Assembly (NCBI RefSeq): GCF_004364865.1
Contig: NZ_SOAU01000001.1
Coordinates: forward strand, 992,001-1,056,000
DNA from: Ilumatobacter fluminis
GTDB taxonomy: Bacteria > Actinomycetota > Acidimicrobiia > Acidimicrobiales > Ilumatobacteraceae
DNA: 64,000 nucleotides
Reading direction: 5' to 3'
Each line of letters starts with the position of its first letter. The stretch's first letter is position 1. This document shows, in pieces, positions 44,649-55,704 of this stretch. A program made the translations under genes and the position numbers. Below the pieces are notes generated by a model that saw nothing but the letters and a program-made list of their open reading frames with translations, was not told where the DNA came from and ran no database searches.

Positions 44649-45695
44649 TCAGGACGGGCGCAGCGACGACCGGACGAACAGGTCGCTGCCCGGACTCGCG
44701 CCGGCGATCGCGTCGGCAGCGAGGACGACGGCGGCCGCCGTGTACGAACTGGTCTCGCCCTCGGGGAACACGACCTTGTCGGGGTAGACGAGACCGGTGA
44801 GGTAGCTGCCGTCGGGGCAGCGATGTGACCGGGTCCAGCGGAGCAGATCGGTCGCCGTCGCGAACTCACCGATCGACGCGTAGGCGAGCGATGCCTCGGC
44901 GGTCTCCGACGCCGTGATCCACGGCTCGTCGCTGACGCACCGGATGCCCAGTCCTTCCATCGAGAACGTCGGCCAGCCGTCGGCGAGGCGGATCTTGGCC
45001 GCCTCACCCTCGATCGCACCGGTGAGGACGGGGTAGTACCAGTCCATCGCCCAACGGGTCTTCGGCTGGAAGGCCAGCGGTTCGTTCGCGATCAGTGAGC
45101 ACATGCGGTCGGCGGCGTCGACCCAGTCGGGTCGGGGCGAGCCGGTCGCCAGACCGACGGCGGCGCCACAGCGGAGCGCGTGCTGGATCGACGACGAGCC
45201 GGTGAGCAGTGCGTAGTCCCAGCGGCGGGTGCCGTCCGCCTCGACCGCCCAGAGGACGAGTCCGTCGTCCTTGCGGAGGGACAGGACGTGGTCGAGCGCC
45301 CGCTCGACGGTCGGCCACAGATTGTCGACGAAGCTGCGGTCGCTGGTGCACTTCCAGTGGTGCCACACGCCGGTTGCGATGTACGCGACGACGTTCGTGT
45401 CGACCTTGTCGTCCTCGACCGCCATGTCGCGGTCGCCGTCGGGCAGGTAGTAGTTGTGCCAGCTGCCGTCGGGGCGCTGGATGTCGGCGAGCCACTCGTA
45501 CGCCCGCTCCGCTTCACGATGCAGGCCGGCCACGTCGAGTGCCATCGCCGACTCGACGTGGTTCCACGCGTCGCAGTGACCGCCCGGCCACCACGGGATC
45601 ATGCCGCTGTCGGTCTGCAGACCTGCCAGGTGCTCCGCCGATGCGACGATCTCGTCGCTCGAGATGACGCCGGGCAGGTCGGGGATGCGACTCAT
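44649..45695 (-). CDS. alpha/alpha-toroid (prenyltransferase/terpenoid cyclase-like) protein
   Basis: A 348-residue soluble protein with repeated helical pairs ending in aromatic/Gly turns (DSGMIPWWPGGHCDAWNHVE, QRPDGSWHNYY, CPDGSYLTGLV), as in alpha6/alpha6 toroids of squalene cyclases, prenyltransferase beta subunits and GH15-like enzymes. Catalytic residues could not be assigned. Its ATG overlaps the methyltransferase stop by 4 nt (ATGA), in the order glycosyltransferase-methyltransferase-toroid. That suggests a shared glycan or glycolipid pathway. Confidence 0.65.
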   Translation of the reverse strand: MSRIPDLPGVISSDEIVASAEHLAGLQTDSGMIPWWPGGHCDAWNHVESAMALDVAGLHREAERAYEWLADIQRPDGSWHNYYLPDGDRDMAVEDDKVDTNVVAYIATGVWHHWKCTSDRSFVDNLWPTVERALDHVLSLRKDDGLVLWAVEADGTRRWDYALLTGSSSIQHALRCGAAVGLATGSPRPDWVDAADRMCSLIANEPLAFQPKTRWAMDWYYPVLTGAIEGEAAKIRLADGWPTFSMEGLGIRCVSDEPWITASETAEASLAYASIGEFATATDLLRWTRSHRCPDGSYLTGLVYPDKVVFPEGETSSYTAAAVVLAADAIAGASPGSDLFVRSSLRPS

Positions 45696-46417
45696 CCGTC
45701 ATCTCGCTTCGTCGCGTAGTGCACCGAGCTCTTGCCCAACACGGGTGACAGCACACGTTCGGCGACCTTCGTGCTGGCCGGCTGCTCGATGATGTCCCAT
45801 TCGAGGAAACTGCGGTACTTGACCACGATCGGGTGGTCGTCGTTGGTGGGGCCGACGGCGCACTTGAGCCACCAGTACGGCGAGTGCAGAGCGTGTGCCC
45901 GGTGGTAGCCGTCGACGTCGAGGCCTGCGGTACGCAGCTTCGCCCGCAGCTCGGTCTTGGTGTAGATGCGGACGTGCCCACCGACCGACTTCGGCGCGTG
46001 GTACTCGTCGCTCAGCTTCCAGTTGACGACTTCGGGCGACCAGGCCGGCACGGTGGCGGCGAATCGGCCGCCCGGCTTCAGCACTCTGACCATCTCGGAG
46101 ATCGCGGCGACGTCGTCTTGGATGTGTTCCAGCACTTCCGACGTGATCACGACGTCGAACGTGTCGTCGGGGAACGGAAGCCGTGTCGCGTCGCCCTGCA
46201 GCACACCGATCAATCGGTCGGGTGTGATCTCGCCCTGCTCGACCATTGCGGCGAGGGTGTCTCGCGTCTCGACCACCTCGTCGGCGGCGTAGTCGAGTGC
46301 GACCACGCGGGCGCCGCGGCGGGCGCACTCGTAGACGTGGCGACCGAACCCGGACCCCACGTCGAGGACTCGGTCGTCGGGCCGCAGGCCCAGTTCGTCG
46401 AAGCGGATGGTGAGCAT
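45692..46417 (-). CDS. class I SAM-dependent methyltransferase in glycosyltransferase operon
   Basis: A 241-residue methyltransferase. The SAM motif is VLDVGSGFGRHVYECARRG (residues 18-36), with VVALDYA for motif II, FDVVITSEVLEHIQD for motif IV and VLKPGGRF for the post-motif. The start at 46417 follows the glycosyltransferase stop by 2 nt (TGAccATG); the frame upstream overlaps that gene and is not used. It probably methylates a sugar or lipid product of the neighbour. Confidence 0.88.
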   Translation of the reverse strand: MLTIRFDELGLRPDDRVLDVGSGFGRHVYECARRGARVVALDYAADEVVETRDTLAAMVEQGEITPDRLIGVLQGDATRLPFPDDTFDVVITSEVLEHIQDDVAAISEMVRVLKPGGRFAATVPAWSPEVVNWKLSDEYHAPKSVGGHVRIYTKTELRAKLRTAGLDVDGYHRAHALHSPYWWLKCAVGPTNDDHPIVVKYRSFLEWDIIEQPASTKVAERVLSPVLGKSSVHYATKRDDG

Positions 46418-46419
46418 GG

Positions 46420-47718
46420 TCAGATCCGGCCGTTGGCGGCGAGCTTCTGGATGTTCTGCGGCATGGCGAGCACCTCGCGGTACTGCTCGACGGTCAGCTC
46501 CGCGCAACGACGCCAGGTCCAGCGTTCGAGCACGCGCTGGCGACCGGCCTCGCCGACCCGTGCACGTGCGTCGGGGTTGTCGAGTGCCCGGCGGATCGTG
46601 GCGGCCAGATCGTCGGCATCGCCCTTCCGGCACCGGAAGACGGTCTCGCCGTCCTGTCCGGTCACTTCGGGGAGGGCGCCGCCGTCGGTGGCGACGAGCG
46701 GCGTGCCGGAGCACATCGCCTCGATCGCCGGCAGCGAGAACCCCTCGTAGAGGCTCGGCACGACGGCGAGCTCGGCCTGCGAGTACAGCTCGACGATGCG
46801 TTCGTCGGGCACACCCGAGACGAACTCGATGTGATCGGCGAGCCCGTACTGCTCGATCAGATCCATCGACTTGCCCGGCTTGGCGCGACCGATGACGGTG
46901 AGCGTGATGTCGGCGCCGTCGGCGCGCAACTTGGCCATGGCCTCGATCAGATAGGCGAGCCCCTTGATGGCCACGTCGGCCGACGCGGTCGTGATCAGAC
47001 GGCCGGGGATGTGCTCGACGCCGTCGAGGGGACGGAACAGCTCGGGGTCGACACCGACCGGTACGAGCCGCATGTTCTCCATCGGGACGCCCATGTCGGT
47101 GTGGATGTCGTTGATCGAGTTCTCGCTCACGACCACGACTCGGGGGACGCGCGACGCGACCTTGCCCTGCATCCGCACGAAGCTGTACCACCGGCCGACG
47201 GCGCGCTTCTTGAACCAGTTCGGCGCCGCTTCGATCTCGAGCGCACGATCGCGGGTGATCGGATGGTGCAGGGTGACGATGAGCGGGATCTTCTCTTCGA
47301 GCTTTGCGATGCCGTAGCCGAGCGACTGGTTGTCGTGGACGAGGTCGAACTCGCCGAGTCGCTTCGAGAGGTGGGCATCGACCCGAGCGCTGAAGGCGAG
47401 CGGCTCGGGGAACTGCCCCGTGCAGAACACGGCCGCCTCGAGCAGGTCGTAGCGGCTCTTGAACTCCCAGTACGCCGGGAAACGACCGGGGTACTGGTCG
47501 TTGAAGATGTCGAGCGAGGGGAGCTTGGTGAGCGGGACCCGTTCGTCGAGCACCGGGTACGGCTGGCCGGCGAAGACCTCGACATGATGGCCGAGATCGA
47601 CCAGCGCCTTGGTCAGGTGCCGGGTGTAGATGCCCTGGCCGCCGACGTGCGGCTTGCCGCGATACGTGAGATACGCGAGCGACAGGGGCGCGTGGGGATC
47701 ATGTCCGGCCGGGGGCAT
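46420..47718 (-). CDS. glycosyltransferase family 4
   Basis: A 432-residue GT-B enzyme. The N-terminal loop HVGGQGIYTRHLTKALVDLGH, the mid-region RLVPVGVDPELFRPL and the donor-site EX7E-type region PSLYEGFSLPAIEAMCSGTPLVATDGGALPEV are diagnostic of GT4. TAGTCT is 6 nt before the ATG (leaderless pattern), and GTTACC-N4-GGTAAC lies just upstream. It heads a three-gene minus-strand operon. The sugar and acceptor are not known; a role in a methylated polysaccharide or glycolipid is inference. Confidence 0.9.
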   Translation of the reverse strand: MPPAGHDPHAPLSLAYLTYRGKPHVGGQGIYTRHLTKALVDLGHHVEVFAGQPYPVLDERVPLTKLPSLDIFNDQYPGRFPAYWEFKSRYDLLEAAVFCTGQFPEPLAFSARVDAHLSKRLGEFDLVHDNQSLGYGIAKLEEKIPLIVTLHHPITRDRALEIEAAPNWFKKRAVGRWYSFVRMQGKVASRVPRVVVVSENSINDIHTDMGVPMENMRLVPVGVDPELFRPLDGVEHIPGRLITTASADVAIKGLAYLIEAMAKLRADGADITLTVIGRAKPGKSMDLIEQYGLADHIEFVSGVPDERIVELYSQAELAVVPSLYEGFSLPAIEAMCSGTPLVATDGGALPEVTGQDGETVFRCRKGDADDLAATIRRALDNPDARARVGEAGRQRVLERWTWRRCAELTVEQYREVLAMPQNIQKLAANGRI

Positions 47719-47739: not shown

Positions 47740-47755
47740 GTTACCTGGAGGTAAC
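47740..47755. promoter_or_regulatory. palindrome upstream of the glycosyltransferase operon
   Basis: GTTACC-TGGA-GGTAAC is centred about 30 nt before the start codon at 47718 and just upstream of TAGTCT, in the -25 to -35 region. A dimeric repressor could bind there. It could equally be a terminator stem for a convergent transcript. Confidence 0.35.
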
Positions 47756-47785: not shown

Positions 47786-49744
47786 TCAGCAGTGGGTGCC
47801 GTCGGTGCCGACCGAGACCGTGCCGCTCTCGGTGGTGCGGTAGCCGTGACGATCGACCGCCGACGCCGTCCACGAATGGATGCCGGGATCGGGCACCGTG
47901 TCCCCGTCGCGGTCGAGGTTGAACGACCCGTAGTACGTGTTGCCATCGGGGAGGAGCGGCTCGAACGCCGTCTGGCCACCGGGCGTGACGATCGTGATGC
48001 CTGCGGTGATCGGTGGCGACTCGTCCGAGATGCCCGCCTGCCACGAGATCCAGCTGAGCTGTGAGGCTTGGCACACGTGGGTCGGCGGCGGGATGAGCTT
48101 CATGGCCGGGGGACGGGCGATCGCAGCGGTGACGTCGACGGTCGCCTCCGCTCCGTCGCCGTAGAACGTGAACGACTGAGCGACCGGGCCTTCGGTCGAC
48201 CATGTCCGGTCGACCGAGATCGTGATGGTCGCCGACGCGCCCGGTGCGAGCTCGCCCTGCGTCGGTGAGATCGAGAACGGTGACGATGCTCCTCGGAAGC
48301 CGAGCGGCCCGCTGAACGTGTACCAGGTCATCGGCGCCCCGCCCGGGTTGGACACCGTGACCGTCGCCGACGGGCTCGTCCGACCGAGGTCGACGCTGCC
48401 GGCCGACAGCTGCAACGACCCGGGCGTGGTCGTCGTGGTCGTGGGCCTCGTCGTCGCGGGCACCGTGGTGGGTGGTGGAGGCGGCGGTGCGGGTGGCGCG
48501 GTGGTGGTCGTGGTGGTGGTCGTCGGGGCGATCGGGTTGGCGCTCAGCGTCGGTGTGGTCGACGTCGTGACCGGGAGCGTCGTGGTCGTGGTCGACGTGG
48601 TGGATGTCGTGCTGGTCGAAGTGCTGGTCGAGGTGCTGGTCGAGGTGGAGGTGCTCGGTGTCGTCGTCGTGCTCGGTGCGACCGGGGGAGCGGCGGCGAC
48701 CGTCGTGGCGGGTGCGGGCGAGGTCGGGTCCGGCGACGTGGTGGTCGTCGACGTGGACCCGATCGGTGCGGTTGCCACCTGTTCGGTCGATCCGTCTGCC
48801 AGGACGTAGACCGCGGTGCCCGCCGTCAGCACGACCAACGCTGCGATGCCGACGACCAGGAGCGCCAGCTTGTGGAGGTGCCGCAGCGCGGACGGGAACC
48901 CACCCGGGCGACCGAACCCGTACGAGGCGGCACCGCCGGCGCCGCTGCCTCCGGCCGGTGTGATGTTCGTGGTCGCTGCGAGCACCCGGTCGCGGAGGGC
49001 CGGGGGAGCGGCGAACGCCGGAGCGCCGGCGAACAGGGCGAGCGGAACGACCTTGCTCCGAGTGCGCTCGCAGATGTCGCACTGGTCGATGTGGCGGGCG
49101 ACGCGCTTGCGGATCAGGACCGAGAACTGCTCGTCCCAGCCCTGCAGGATCTTCGCCAGCTCGTCGCACTCCTTGCGGCCGCGCCGAGCTACACAGAACG
49201 CTGCGAGGCTCCGCTCGGTGCGCTGACGCATCCGGTGCACCAGGCCGTAGCTCTGTTGGGCGGAGACGCCGAGTGCGTCCGCGAGGTCGGCGCCGTCGAG
49301 ACCCTGGCGCACGCTGAGTTCGAGCACGAGTTGGTCGCGTTCGTCGAGGCCGGCTGCCGCTCCGCGCACGAGGGCGGCGAGCTCGTCGTACTCGACGCCG
49401 GCGGTCGCGTCGTGCTCGTCGGGCGGGAGCTGCATCTCAGCCGCCGCCTCGGTGAAGTCGGTGGGGACTGCCCGTCGACCCTTCTTGGTGCGTCGGTACA
49501 CCTCGTTGCGCAAGATCGCGAACAACCACGGCTTGAGACGCGAGGGGTCGCGCAGCTGGCCGAGCCGTTCGGCCGCCACCACGAACACGTCCTGCACCAC
49601 GTCGGCAGCGTCGTGCCGATTGCCGGTCATCGCCGCCGCGGTGTCGTAGAGCGTTGCGCCGTACAGGTCGTACATCCCGGCGAGCGCGCTCCGATCGCCG
49701 GAGAGATACGCGCTGACGAGCTGGGAATCCGTGATGGTCGACAT
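47786..49744 (-). CDS. ECF sigma factor fused to ZAS anti-sigma domain, TM helix and extracellular domain
   Basis: A 652-residue single frame. Sigma region 2 is at about 10-85 (DAADVVQDVFVVAAERL, LKPWLFAILRNEVYRR) and region 4 at about 130-182 (LDERDQLVLELSVRQGL, ADALGVSAQQSYGLVHRMRQR). A zinc anti-sigma motif His218-x3-Cys222-x2-Cys225 follows, then one membrane helix (about 291-315). A Thr/Ser/Pro linker of about 120 residues (320-440) leads to Ig-like beta domains (441-652). Sigma and its inhibitor are thus tied to an outside sensor on one chain. Release probably needs proteolysis or allostery. AGGAGGAGG lies upstream of the ATG. Confidence 0.88.
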   Translation of the reverse strand: MSTITDSQLVSAYLSGDRSALAGMYDLYGATLYDTAAAMTGNRHDAADVVQDVFVVAAERLGQLRDPSRLKPWLFAILRNEVYRRTKKGRRAVPTDFTEAAAEMQLPPDEHDATAGVEYDELAALVRGAAAGLDERDQLVLELSVRQGLDGADLADALGVSAQQSYGLVHRMRQRTERSLAAFCVARRGRKECDELAKILQGWDEQFSVLIRKRVARHIDQCDICERTRSKVVPLALFAGAPAFAAPPALRDRVLAATTNITPAGGSGAGGAASYGFGRPGGFPSALRHLHKLALLVVGIAALVVLTAGTAVYVLADGSTEQVATAPIGSTSTTTTSPDPTSPAPATTVAAAPPVAPSTTTTPSTSTSTSTSTSTSTSTTSTTSTTTTTLPVTTSTTPTLSANPIAPTTTTTTTTAPPAPPPPPPTTVPATTRPTTTTTTPGSLQLSAGSVDLGRTSPSATVTVSNPGGAPMTWYTFSGPLGFRGASSPFSISPTQGELAPGASATITISVDRTWSTEGPVAQSFTFYGDGAEATVDVTAAIARPPAMKLIPPPTHVCQASQLSWISWQAGISDESPPITAGITIVTPGGQTAFEPLLPDGNTYYGSFNLDRDGDTVPDPGIHSWTASAVDRHGYRTTESGTVSVGTDGTHC

Positions 49745-49870
49745 GATGCATGAGCCTCCTCCTCTGTGTGTCCAGAGGTGTCGGAGGCGGGGATCTCGCG
49801 ATTTTCGCGGACGACGTTCGAGAAATCCTCGGTCGACGACCCTAGGCGCGATGCGACGGTCGGTGGTCGG

Positions 49871-52233: not shown

Positions 52234-55200
52234 ATGTCGGAACCGCCCACGCTCTTCTCCGATCCTGCCGACGACGAACCGTCGGCGCCGCCCGCCGCAT
52301 CCGAGCCTGTAGCGCCGGTCGACCCGAACGCCGACATGCCTCATCCGGCCGAGTCGTTCGCCGAACGGGCGGCGCCCCGCCGCGACGGGCCATCGCCGTT
52401 CACCCAGGGTCTCAACCCCGACCAGCTCGACGCCGTCGTGCACACCGAGGGCCCGTTGCTGGTCGTGGCGGGTGCCGGGTCGGGCAAGACGCGAGTGCTC
52501 ACGCACCGGATCGCCCACCTGATCGATCAGGGGGCCCGACCGTCCGAGATCCTCGCCATCACGTTCACGAACAAGGCCGCGGCCGAGATGCGCGAGCGCG
52601 TCGCCGAACTGGTCGGCCCGGTCGTTCGCACGATGTGGGTGTCGACCTTCCACTCGGCGTGCGTCCGCATCCTTCGGCGCGACGGCGAGGCGATCGGCTA
52701 CCCGCGAACCTTCTCGATCTACGACCAGGCCGACGCGGTGCGCCTCACCGGCTACATCATTCGCGACCTCGGGCTCGACGCGAAGCGGTTCACCCCACGC
52801 GGCGTCCACGGTCTGATCTCCCTCTGGAAGAACGAGCTGAAGTCGCCCGAACAGGTCGCGGCCGACGCGGAGAACATCTTCGACCGAAAGCACGCCGACG
52901 TCTACGCCGAGTATCAGGCCCGCCTGCTGAAGGCCGGCGCGATGGACTTCGACGATCTACTCGCGAAGGTCGTCGAGCTGTTCCGTGAGCACCCCGACAT
53001 CCTCGACCACTATCGCCGACGATTCCGCCACATCCTGGTCGACGAGTACCAGGACACGAACCAGGCCCAGAACGAGATCGTCCTCCTCCTGGCCGGCGAC
53101 CACCACAACGTCACCGTCGTCGGCGACACCGACCAGTGCTTCCCGGCCGGCACGCTCGTGACGACTCCGAGCGGACGCGTGCCCATCGAGGCCCTCGCCG
53201 TCGGCGACGCAGTCGTCGGTGCCGCGCAGCACCCGACGCCGCGGTCCGAAGTGGTGACACACGTCGAGCCAGGTCACTACGAAGGCACGGTCGTGCGGTT
53301 GCGTGCCGGCGAGCACGAGGTCGTCGCGACGCCCGGCCACCTCGTCCCGATGCGCCTCGTGCCACAGGCCGACCGATGGCTCGTCTACCTGATGTACCGA
53401 GCCGACCGAGGGTGGCGTATCGGGCGCACCGTCGCATCGCGTCCTGCACGTGCCGGCCTGGCGAAGCACGGACTCCTCGTGCGAACCAATCAGGAGCACG
53501 CGGACGCCGCCTGGGTGCTTCGCATCTGCGACTCACTCTCCGAAGCGGCGTATCACGAAGCCCGTCTCGCCGCGGAGTTCGGCCTGCCGACGGCGTGCTT
53601 CCACGACACGGGTCGCGGGCTCGCCATGGACGAGGTGTGGCTGCAGCGGTTGTACGACAGCATCGACACCGAGACGCGCGCGAAGAACCTGCTCCACGAG
53701 CATGCGCTGACGGCCGACGCTCCGCACCATCGCCCTCAGAACGGAGCGCGCCGGGCCACCGTCAACCTGACCATGTTCTCCGACCTCCGGGCCGAGGTCG
53801 GCTACCACCGGGTCCAGTGGTCGTCGAACCGCACCGACGTCGCCGACCGACTCCGGGCCGCCGGTTTCCGGCTCCGCGAAGGAAAGACGTCGAAGAGTCT
53901 GCGGTACGAAACCGTCTTCAAGGACTACGACCAGGCGCTCGAATCGGCGCATGCACTCGCCGCTGCGGGCGGGCTCGACATCCGACGCCGGTTGTCGCAC
54001 GGCGGGGTCGTGTACGACCTCATGCCGATCGCGAACGCCCATCCGGGTATGGAGGTGCTCGTGTTGGACGGCGACCGCTTCGAGGTGCGGACCGTCGACG
54101 AAGTGGCGCACGAGCGCTACTCGGGACCGGTGTTCGACCTCGAGATCGATCGGGTCCACACGTATGTCGCCGGCGGATTCCTCGTCCACAACAGCGTGTA
54201 CAAATTCCGCGGGGCCGACTTCCGGAACATCCTGCAGTTCGAAGATGCGTTTCCCGAGGTCACGACGATCGTGCTCGATCAGAACTACCGGTCGACGCAG
54301 ACGATCCTCGACGCGGCGAACGCCGTGATCGACCACAACGTCGAACGCAAGCCGAAGAACCTCTGGACCGACGTCGGTGGTGGCGACCGGATCGTCCGCT
54401 ACCACGCCGAAGACGAGGGGGACGAGGCGATGTGGGTGGCCGGCACCTGCCAGCAACTGCATCGTGACGACGCCTACAACTGGCGAGAGATGGCGGTGCT
54501 GTATCGCACGAATGCCCAGGCCCGTGTGGTCGAAGAGGCGTTCATGCGGTCGGGTATCCCGTACAAGGTCGTGGGCGGTACGCGCTTCTACGACCGGCGC
54601 GAGATCAAGGACGCGATGGCGTACCTGCGCGCCGTCATCAACCCCGCCGACGAGGTCAGCGTCAAACGGATCGTCAACGTGCCCAAGCGCGGCATCGGTG
54701 ACGCCAGCGTCGACCGTCTCGACGCGTACGCCGCCGAGATGGGCATCACGTTCGCCGAGGCGATGCGTCACCCCGACGAAGCGGGCGTCACCGGCCCGGC
54801 CCGACGCGGTCTGGCCCACCTCACAGAGATGCTCGATCGGCTCGGCGACATGGCCGGCACCGAGGGCGTCGGACCCGGCGACCTGTTGCAGGCCTGCCTC
54901 GACGATTCCGGTTACCTCGCCGAGTTCGAGGCCGAGGACACCGTCGAGTCGCACGGCCGCATCGAGAACCTCGGCGAGCTCGTCGGCTCCGCCCGCGAGT
55001 TCACCGTCATGGACGAGTTCCTCGAGCAGGTGAGCCTCGTCGCCGACACCGACGACCTCGACGACGACGATCAGGTCGTGCTGATGACGCTCCACTCCGC
55101 GAAGGGGCTCGAGTTCCCGGCCGTCTTCATCGTCGGCGTCGAGGAGGGCGTGTTCCCCCACAACCGTGCGCTCACCGAACCCGACGAGATGGAGGAGGAG

Positions 55201-55704
55201 CGTCGACTCGCGTACGTCGGTATCACCCGGGCGATGCAGCGGCTGTTCATCTCCCACGCTTGGAGTCGGATGCTGTTCGGCAACACGCAGTACAACCCGC
55301 CGTCGCGGTTCCTCGACGAGATCCCCGAGGCCCTCGTCGACCAGCAGGGCAACGTCAGCGGGCGATCCTCGTACGGTCGCCAGAGCTATCGCAATCGTGA
55401 CGAGCGCCCGTACGACGACCCGCCTGCGTACCGTCGCCGCGGACGCGGCACCGACAGCGCCGCCCAGGACGCCCACCGAGACCGCATCGTCGAGTCGGCG
55501 ATGCGCTCGCGCAACACCCCCGAACCGTCCAACTCGCAGGAGTTGGGGCTGAAGGTCGGCGACGACGTCGCCCACCCGGCCTTCGGCGAGGGCGTCATCA
55601 TCGACATCTCCGGCGCAGGCGACAAGGCCGAAGCGGTCATCAACTTCCCGGGCGTCGGGCAGAAGCACCTCGCCCTGGCGTGGGCACCGCTCAAGAAGCT
55701 CTGA
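52234..55704 (+). CDS. pcrA: ATP-dependent DNA helicase PcrA/UvrD1, interrupted by an intein
   Basis: A 1156-residue precursor; the spliced protein would be 804 residues. Motifs: Q motif GLNPDQLDAV, Walker A AGAGSGKT (79-86), ITFTNKAAAEM (Ia), VDEYQDTN (II), GDTDQ | SVYKFRGAD (III, split by the intein at residues 302-653), LDQNYRST (IV), VVLMTLHSAKGLEF (V) and RRLAYVGITRAM (VI). The C-terminal region LKVGDDVAHPAFGEGVI is the tudor-like domain that binds RNA polymerase in PcrA. It unwinds DNA in repair and at stalled replication or transcription. TAGGAT is 9 nt before the ATG. Confidence 0.95.
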   Translation: MSEPPTLFSDPADDEPSAPPAASEPVAPVDPNADMPHPAESFAERAAPRRDGPSPFTQGLNPDQLDAVVHTEGPLLVVAGAGSGKTRVLTHRIAHLIDQGARPSEILAITFTNKAAAEMRERVAELVGPVVRTMWVSTFHSACVRILRRDGEAIGYPRTFSIYDQADAVRLTGYIIRDLGLDAKRFTPRGVHGLISLWKNELKSPEQVAADAENIFDRKHADVYAEYQARLLKAGAMDFDDLLAKVVELFREHPDILDHYRRRFRHILVDEYQDTNQAQNEIVLLLAGDHHNVTVVGDTDQCFPAGTLVTTPSGRVPIEALAVGDAVVGAAQHPTPRSEVVTHVEPGHYEGTVVRLRAGEHEVVATPGHLVPMRLVPQADRWLVYLMYRADRGWRIGRTVASRPARAGLAKHGLLVRTNQEHADAAWVLRICDSLSEAAYHEARLAAEFGLPTACFHDTGRGLAMDEVWLQRLYDSIDTETRAKNLLHEHALTADAPHHRPQNGARRATVNLTMFSDLRAEVGYHRVQWSSNRTDVADRLRAAGFRLREGKTSKSLRYETVFKDYDQALESAHALAAAGGLDIRRRLSHGGVVYDLMPIANAHPGMEVLVLDGDRFEVRTVDEVAHERYSGPVFDLEIDRVHTYVAGGFLVHNSVYKFRGADFRNILQFEDAFPEVTTIVLDQNYRSTQTILDAANAVIDHNVERKPKNLWTDVGGGDRIVRYHAEDEGDEAMWVAGTCQQLHRDDAYNWREMAVLYRTNAQARVVEEAFMRSGIPYKVVGGTRFYDRREIKDAMAYLRAVINPADEVSVKRIVNVPKRGIGDASVDRLDAYAAEMGITFAEAMRHPDEAGVTGPARRGLAHLTEMLDRLGDMAGTEGVGPGDLLQACLDDSGYLAEFEAEDTVESHGRIENLGELVGSAREFTVMDEFLEQVSLVADTDDLDDDDQVVLMTLHSAKGLEFPAVFIVGVEEGVFPHNRALTEPDEMEEERRLAYVGITRAMQRLFISHAWSRMLFGNTQYNPPSRFLDEIPEALVDQQGNVSGRSSYGRQSYRNRDERPYDDPPAYRRRGRGTDSAAQDAHRDRIVESAMRSRNTPEPSNSQELGLKVGDDVAHPAFGEGVIIDISGAGDKAEAVINFPGVGQKHLALAWAPLKKL
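53137..54192 (+). mobile_element. intein (352 aa) in PcrA motif III with a non-LAGLIDADG insert
   Basis: It starts with Cys (CFPAGTLVTTPSGRVPIEAL, block A), has block B with T-x-x-H (VVATPGHLVP), and ends with block F/G VFDLEIDRVHTYVAGGFLVHN followed by extein Ser. The insertion lies between Gln and Ser of GDTDQ-SVY, so PcrA needs splicing. The central ~250 residues lack LAGLIDADG or HNH motifs. They hold LVYLMY-x7-RIG (protein residues about 383-397) and EAAYHEARLAAEFGLPT (about 437-453), which resemble a GIY-YIG nuclease pattern (inference). All splice residues are present, so it looks active. Confidence 0.92.

Follow-up and report, generated by a model that had tools for sequence, protein, structure and literature searches.

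The window, a stretch of 64,000 nucleotides from Ilumatobacter fluminis (positions 992,001 to 1,056,000 of contig NZ_SOAU01000001.1), carries a gene in which an ECF sigma factor, an anti-sigma domain, a transmembrane helix, and a sensor follow one another in one frame. An aldose-epimerase gene lies upstream of it, and genes resembling those of methylmannose polysaccharide biogenesis lie downstream:

49792–49806, minus strand: conserved element GAAAATCGCGAGATC upstream of the sigma gene, the only exact genome copy of its pattern
47786–49744, minus strand: fused ECF sigma/anti-sigma/transmembrane/sensor gene, 652 aa, single frame
49472–49675, minus strand: sigma region 2, residues 24–91 (Pfam PF04542, 1.7e-10, above cut-off)
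49223–49360, minus strand: sigma region 4, residues 129–174 (PF08281, E 0.011, below the Pfam cut-off; TIGR02937; predicted fold)
48971–49180, minus strand: putative zinc anti-sigma (ZAS) domain, about residues 189–258, with C193, H218, C222, and C225 within 49070–49168 (motif, zf-HC2 in relatives, model helices)
48809–48865, minus strand: membrane helix, residues 294–312 (hydropathy, mean 2.5)
48425–48796, minus strand: Thr/Ser/Pro stalk, residues 317–440, 76% T/S/P (composition)
48122–48415, minus strand: first outside domain, BACON/ASH-type Ig-like fold, about residues 444–541 (HYDIN-type Ig 1e-4 and BACON_2 8e-4, both below cut-off; fold)
47789–48112, minus strand: second outside Ig-like domain, about residues 545–652 (Cys conservation, Big_13 in relatives, model)
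47740–47755, no strand: palindrome GTTACCTCCAGGTAAC in the sigma–manT gap, GTTACC-N4-GGTAAC, a candidate TetR-type operator of manT
46420–47718, minus strand: GT4 glycosyltransferase, ManT-like (E 3e-116 to PDB 7qsg), starting 67 nt past the sigma stop
45692–46417, minus strand: SAM methyltransferase in the pMeT3 position (50–59% identical to the middle gene between manT and mmpH in 4/4 other clusters)
44649–45695, minus strand: methylmannose polysaccharide hydrolase (MmpH)-like (E 2.2e-89 to PDB 7qsj)

The 652-residue frame has the coordinates and length of the original prediction, the strand being minus, and the parts claimed for it (regions 2 and 4, the zinc motif, one membrane helix, the stalk, and the Ig-like domains) were all confirmed by Pfam, TIGR02937, hydropathy, composition, and AF2 modeling. 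Residues 20–175 match the sigma70-ECF family TIGR02937 with 63.9 bits against a cut-off of 42.9, and the protein contains regions 2 and 4 only, adjacent to each other, as in an ECF sigma factor (TIGR02937, PF04542, and the fold, with PF08281 below cut-off). Zinc anti-sigma domains normally keep such sigma factors off. In the window protein, HIDQCDIC at residues 218–225 is preceded by an additional Cys at 193, HxxxCxxC being expected 0.0008 times from the composition of the protein alone, and helices surround the motif in the AF2 model (residues 194–199, 209–221, 223–236, and 248–258). This combination of Hx3Cx2C, an upstream ligand, and flanking helices is that of a Class I ZAS, with zinc binding and sigma inhibition as predicted properties. 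At E ≤ 1, Pfam zf-HC2 has no match to the window protein itself and matches 25/65 rows of the family alignment (best 7e-5). C193 is invariant in the 65 aligned rows; H218, C222, and C225 are also invariant, the motif having been the entry condition for the alignment. The membrane helix is preceded by RHLHK and followed by Asp/Glu, which fits a predicted N-in orientation, and a second, weaker hydropathy peak (1.64) lies at residues 232–250, inside the tail of the zinc domain. Elsewhere in the window (52234–55704), the middle of a UvrD-type helicase frame reads, by its motifs, like a possible intein insertion.

Beyond the stalk, residues 437–652 are predicted as beta domains (AF2: mean pLDDT 92.2, pTM 0.76), the first of which aligns to PapD/HYDIN-type Ig folds over ~100 residues with Z of ~10 to 12. 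BACON_2 is found in 39/46 rows of the sensor alignment at E ≤ 0.01 (best 6e-13; the window row, 8e-4, is below cut-off) and Big_13 in 16/46. Across the 46 rows, the second domain keeps C652 without exception and C558 nearly so, and the two likely form a disulfide.

A scan of named genomes confirmed 289 stretches with related genes; here we use the best 80 of the 289, ranked by likeness to a sigma-plus-zinc query, which favors fused forms. They include Ilumatobacter, Nocardioides, Aeromicrobium, Pimelobacter, Mycolicibacterium, and Actinophytocola. Complete frames number 66 in this set, the 14 incomplete ones being excluded, one of which (L122) is without HxxxCxxC in the part read. The reading of the chain as a fusion of sigma, anti-sigma, membrane, and sensor parts was borne out in relatives: in these best 80 of 289 loci, all 66 complete relatives carry HxxxCxxC on the sigma chain, 64/66 have a membrane helix more than 20 residues past the zinc motif, and at least 80 residues follow the helix in 63/66. 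N runs break both helix-less exceptions (L106 and L148), and the L148 frame degenerates after its runs; L099 also has an N run. Complete relatives of this set are 361 to 702 aa long, the longest being the degenerate L148 frame, and core identity to the window protein ranges from 45 to 87%. Observed in this set are the parts and how they are ordered, conserved, and fused; because the loci were chosen by likeness to sigma and zinc parts, these counts do not prove that unfused relatives are absent.

The two-domain sensor profile matches 51/80 loci (best 80 of 289), 45 of them across nearly the full profile length. A Streptomyces-type relative ends instead in a CAP domain (PF00188, 6.9e-25), with four more similar by eye, and mycobacterial relatives have a Pro-rich tail without Ig domains. 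Judged from these sequences, outside sensors are exchanged on a constant sigma–ZAS–helix core. Residues 1–258 find a strong match (E 5.1e-29 or better; next best 6.3e-16) in 14/41 genomes, namely that of the window and 40 others of its order. In a wider phylum sample, for which six candidates per genome were scored as a rule, at least 136/396 genomes match at 1e-20, many over the sigma part only, and at least 36/396, among the matches listed, combine E 1e-30 with a match reaching model position 230 or beyond. Three of the eight strongest matches in one genus (g90, mycobacterial in our tree) lie in open frames of only 264–278 aa, and the two of these that were read, L190 and L191 (253 and 266 aa), carry the sigma part plus the zinc motif and lack a membrane helix, so that a sigma part with its zinc domain can exist without a tether.

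In the AF2 model of residues 1–270 (mean pLDDT 77.7; below 50 at 90–116 and 235–246), sigma regions 2 and 4 are predicted in the closed arrangement of RsiW-bound SigW. With structure neighbors ranked by Foldseek, the sigma part of the model (residues 3–183) aligns with both domains at once to SigW of SigW–RsiW (5wur_A; Z 15.2, 156 aligned residues, 3.3 Å), CnrH of CnrH–CnrY (Z 13.8, 152, 3.1 Å), and RpoE of RpoE–NepR (Z 13.7, 149, 3.0 Å), while RNA polymerase-bound ECF factors align by a single domain at a time or at ~27 Å. Resemblance of the model to inhibited sigma complexes extends to some and not all of them, because sigmaE–RseA, AlgU–MucA, SigE–ChrR (ChrR is itself a zinc anti-sigma), and BldN–RsbN align over one domain only (76–90 residues) and SigK–RskA over 123 residues at 6.0 Å. 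RsiW wraps around both sigma domains, whereas ChrR, RseA, and RskA sit between them (PMC7406223), so that, if the model favors either type, it is the wrapping one. AF2 may close isolated sigma factors anyway, and the match to some inhibited complexes but not to others slightly lowers our confidence in the tethered one-chain reading.

Altogether, these observations favor a model, which we consider probable, whereby the window protein is a one-chain, membrane-tethered ECF sigma factor that is held off in cis and, as we infer, freed by proteolysis after an outside signal. In this model, sigma regions 2 and 4 would lie in the cytoplasm and be locked in cis by the zinc anti-sigma domain next to them, a single N-in/C-out helix would tie the protein to the membrane, and the two-domain Ig-like sensor would reach through the envelope on the stiff Thr/Ser/Pro stalk. 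A change on the outside, probably binding to or lost contact with an envelope polymer, would open the chain to an initial cleavage on the outer side of the membrane, after which an M50 site-2 protease would cut within the membrane and cytoplasmic proteases would remove the zinc domain so that the freed sigma part could join RNA polymerase. Topology, signal, release, and the targets of the freed sigma part are all putative elements of the model. As originally noted, a partner protease is not adjacent, there being no protease family among the Pfam hits of the eight neighboring proteins scanned; this absence is uninformative, because M50 protease matches occur at three places in the genome away from the locus.

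The alternative that survives best, though we hold it to be rather unlikely, is that the built-in zinc domain opens by a shape change (through a different zinc or redox state, or tension on the helix) with no cutting at all, the sigma part then working while tethered, or as a soluble protein in the helix-less forms. The mycobacterial-type sigma-plus-zinc proteins without a helix (L190 and L191, and a third by open-frame length only) speak for such a switch, as do the ECF41 extensions, which PMC8999054 describes as acting by shape change. Against it, almost all complete genes in the best 80 of 289 loci retain a helix after the zinc motif, the recurrence of the outside profile in the same set points to outside sensing, and a tethered holoenzyme would presumably be hindered.

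What the sigma factor controls is a separate matter, and here the neighborhood invites a second alternative. PDB entries 7qsg and 7qsj represent ManT and MmpH from Mycobacterium hassiacum, both of which act in methylmannose polysaccharide biogenesis (PMC9883506). The MmpH-like protein of the window keeps Asp47, Trp49, Asn101, Thr163, Met215, Tyr219, Glu262, and Glu265 in alignment to 7qsj, with Asp50 replaced by Asn and Phe102 by Val (numbering of PMC9883506, i.e., chain position minus one). Of the four genes that make up a methylmannose polysaccharide cluster (manT, pmeT3, mmpH, and meT1), the comparison covered the first three; their order, manT–methyltransferase–mmpH, is also found in 4/4 other clusters compared, and none of these clusters, of 12.5–13 kb each, contains a sigma match at 1e-6. 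Among Ilumatobacteraceae-like loci, which are our own grouping rather than a taxonomic one (the window, L089–L128, L133, L160, and L161), the sigma gene is complete and followed by 600 bp or more of sequence in 30; of these, 27 have a ManT-like gene after it in the same orientation, 26 the methyltransferase, and 25 MmpH. The same contig is represented twice by L089/G003, L127+L056/G008, L161/G006, L160/G001, and L104/G022.

This linkage, together with the gap of only 67 nt in the window, could mean that the sigma factor serves the downstream methylmannose polysaccharide-type operon as its dedicated regulator and would add an envelope signal to it. We find this doubtful. The link to a ManT-like gene is seen in 0/35 loci of other lineages, MmpH occurs in 38/41 genomes of the order against 14/41 for the sigma gene, and nine further manT loci of the family (L203–L211) have no sigma match beside them; in L203–L206, epimerase and manT lie side by side with no sigma gene between. 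Moreover, manT has an element of its own in the gap (the palindrome, then TAGTCT, with the start 6 nt later), which is also present in relatives without the sigma gene. As raw pattern counts, TACC-N(3-6)-GGTA precedes manT in 18/30 loci of the sigma-bearing set (17/29 after removal of the doubled locus L056 = L127; the gap measures 413 and 1674 nt in two loci) and in 6/9 of the sigma-less loci L203–L211. A simple scheme in which the sigma factor runs this operon is weakened by manT's own element and by the relatives without the sigma gene.

The full palindrome has four exact sites and five with one mismatch in the genome, against one for the reversed control. At the six of nine sites that were read, it precedes manT, a TetR gene (with an enoyl-CoA hydratase on the other side), and genes for a 3-hydroxyacyl-CoA dehydrogenase, an alpha/beta hydrolase, a short-chain dehydrogenase, and an acyl-CoA dehydrogenase. 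With fatty-acid genes and a TetR gene following its other sites, the palindrome makes a TetR-type fatty-acid regulator a better candidate than the sigma factor for the control of manT, and these sites suggest that a TetR lipid regulon likely takes in the methylmannose polysaccharide-type operon. In a literature search that covered few subscription papers, so that absence is little proof, no paper treats "methylmannose polysaccharide" and "sigma factor" together, and the sole match for Ilumatobacter with sigma factor and anti-sigma concerns mismatch repair.

The sequence upstream of the sigma gene is less informative about targets. The conserved upstream element occurs once exactly in the genome and five times with a single mismatch, so that no regulon was derived from it. 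Upstream of 81 sigma genes, none of four ECF-type promoter words stands out from shuffles (observed against shuffled mean: 2 vs 1.3, 2 vs 3.0, 6 vs 2.7 with a shuffle maximum of 7, and 6 vs 9.4). At the start of the gene, an out-of-frame ATG stands exactly 7 nt before the chosen sigma start in the window (49744–49751) and in 16/43 Ilumatobacteraceae-like loci, nearer to a Shine–Dalgarno-like sequence than the chosen start; the overlapping frame stays open for 104 codons, which is not unusual (536/2000 synonymous shuffles are as long). In Nocardioidaceae loci such as L131–L142, TAGGAT or TACGAT can be seen by eye a few nt ahead of the sigma start codon, suggesting leaderless sigma transcripts there.

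Loci of other lineages have different neighbors. By tblastn, which replaced a text pattern that gave 4/58 loci, 15/35 of them show a class F sortase match after the sigma gene in the same orientation; family models support two of these sortases in NCBIfam (below cut-off) and one in Pfam. GPGDI-like repeat proteins lie near the sigma gene in L131, L137, L138, L141, L148, L156, L158, L055, L075, and L048, several with a signal peptide and a C-terminal membrane segment by eye. Six GPGDI-repeat loci (L131, L137, L138, L141, L156, and L158) have a class F sortase match, and the L048 protein matches the NCBIfam GVDTG sorting domain.

Going further, we speculate, with no more conviction than for the dedicated regulator, that these proteins form a receptor-like family of one-chain transmembrane transcription factors in Actinobacteria, in which the core would stay constant while the outside part is exchanged (BACON/ASH and Ig, CAP, or a Pro-rich tail only) or the membrane part dropped, and which in Ilumatobacteraceae would pass an envelope signal to methylmannose polysaccharide and lipid metabolism by read-through into the manT operon. 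The weakest reading, that a sequencing or assembly error fused two genes, we reject as virtually impossible, because sigma and zinc motif share one chain in 66/66 complete relatives (best 80 of 289) from many separate assemblies at the core identities given above, and a search for a frameshift or for separate genes in relatives, these having been chosen by likeness to the sigma-plus-zinc query, found nothing in its favor.

A tethered one-chain sigma factor would be a compact sensor-to-promoter system on one polypeptide, with no partner gene and no stoichiometry to balance. The natural variants of the clade, i.e., those with other outside domains, with the stalk only, with no helix, or absent from a locus that is otherwise kept, make cis-inhibition and release directly testable, while the locus suggests a TetR/fatty-acid link to the methylmannose polysaccharide genes.

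The original prediction held this class to be not wholly unknown, and rightly so, since ECF48, ECF52, and ECF53 have been published as actinobacterial sigma factors whose C-terminal part holds a zinc finger and one or two membrane helices, and for which release by proteolysis is expected (PMC8999054, PMC5826349). The part order of the window protein is that of ECF52, in which SCO4117 of Streptomyces coelicolor likewise unites on a single chain, and also in Actinobacteria, an ECF sigma factor, a zinc finger, a membrane segment, a Pro-rich stretch, and an outside domain of carbohydrate type; the outside domain of the window protein is BACON-like, with carbohydrate binding as a putative property. 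A sigma-only SCO4117 gene gives a milder defect than deletion, and cleavage of SCO4117 is itself only proposed (PMC5826349). The outside domain of ECF52 is NPCBM, in contrast to BACON/ASH-like plus Ig in the window protein, and the two differ in sigma clade when NPCBM-ended proteins, taken for Streptomyces, stand in for SCO4117 on account of its published domain make-up. In a maximum-likelihood tree of 56 sigma or sigma–ZAS sequences (midpoint root, several deep forks open, L042 a long branch), the window protein falls in a 40-row clade (100/98) with Nocardioidaceae, Mycobacteriaceae, and CAP-ended proteins, while three NPCBM-ended proteins form a separate 8-row clade (100/97) that includes two further fused proteins of the window's genome. 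Membership of the window protein in ECF52 was rejected on its position outside this 8-row clade. The two further proteins, at ~2737774 (L039) and ~3606457 (L042) of G000:C1 (the window's genome), have the same sigma–zinc–helix–stalk build and belong to the NPCBM/SCO4117-type clade.

ECF48, typified by a Mycolicibacterium chlorophenolicum protein, and ECF53, typified by a Streptomyces protein, share with the window protein the sigma factor followed by a C-terminal zinc finger and one or two helices (PMC8999054). Compared by description, the Mycobacteriaceae and Streptomyces-type members of the window's clade are suggestive of kinship with ECF48/ECF53, but the mycobacterial members read end in a Pro-rich tail without Ig domains. 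The anti-sigma part of IutY is FecR-type and belongs to Gram-negative cell-surface signaling, and the FecR family is absent from the Pfam hits of the window protein at E ≤ 1, which sets it apart from IutY/ECF243. What IutY (ECF243) of Pseudomonas putida shares with it is a sigma factor and a membrane anti-sigma on one chain with regulated proteolysis; it is named as the one tested case and is freed by Prc and RseP (PMC8999054). The SigW–RsiW pair of Bacillus subtilis also has a zinc anti-sigma domain, and the RsiW-bound SigW arrangement recurs in the predicted model of the window protein, but the pair consists of two separate proteins rather than one chain. To these systems our analysis adds the breadth of the family, its split from the SCO4117-type clade, the changing outside domains on a constant core, the tether-less forms, and caution about the neighboring operon. 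The window protein is a conserved, little-described branch of the known one-chain membrane sigma design.
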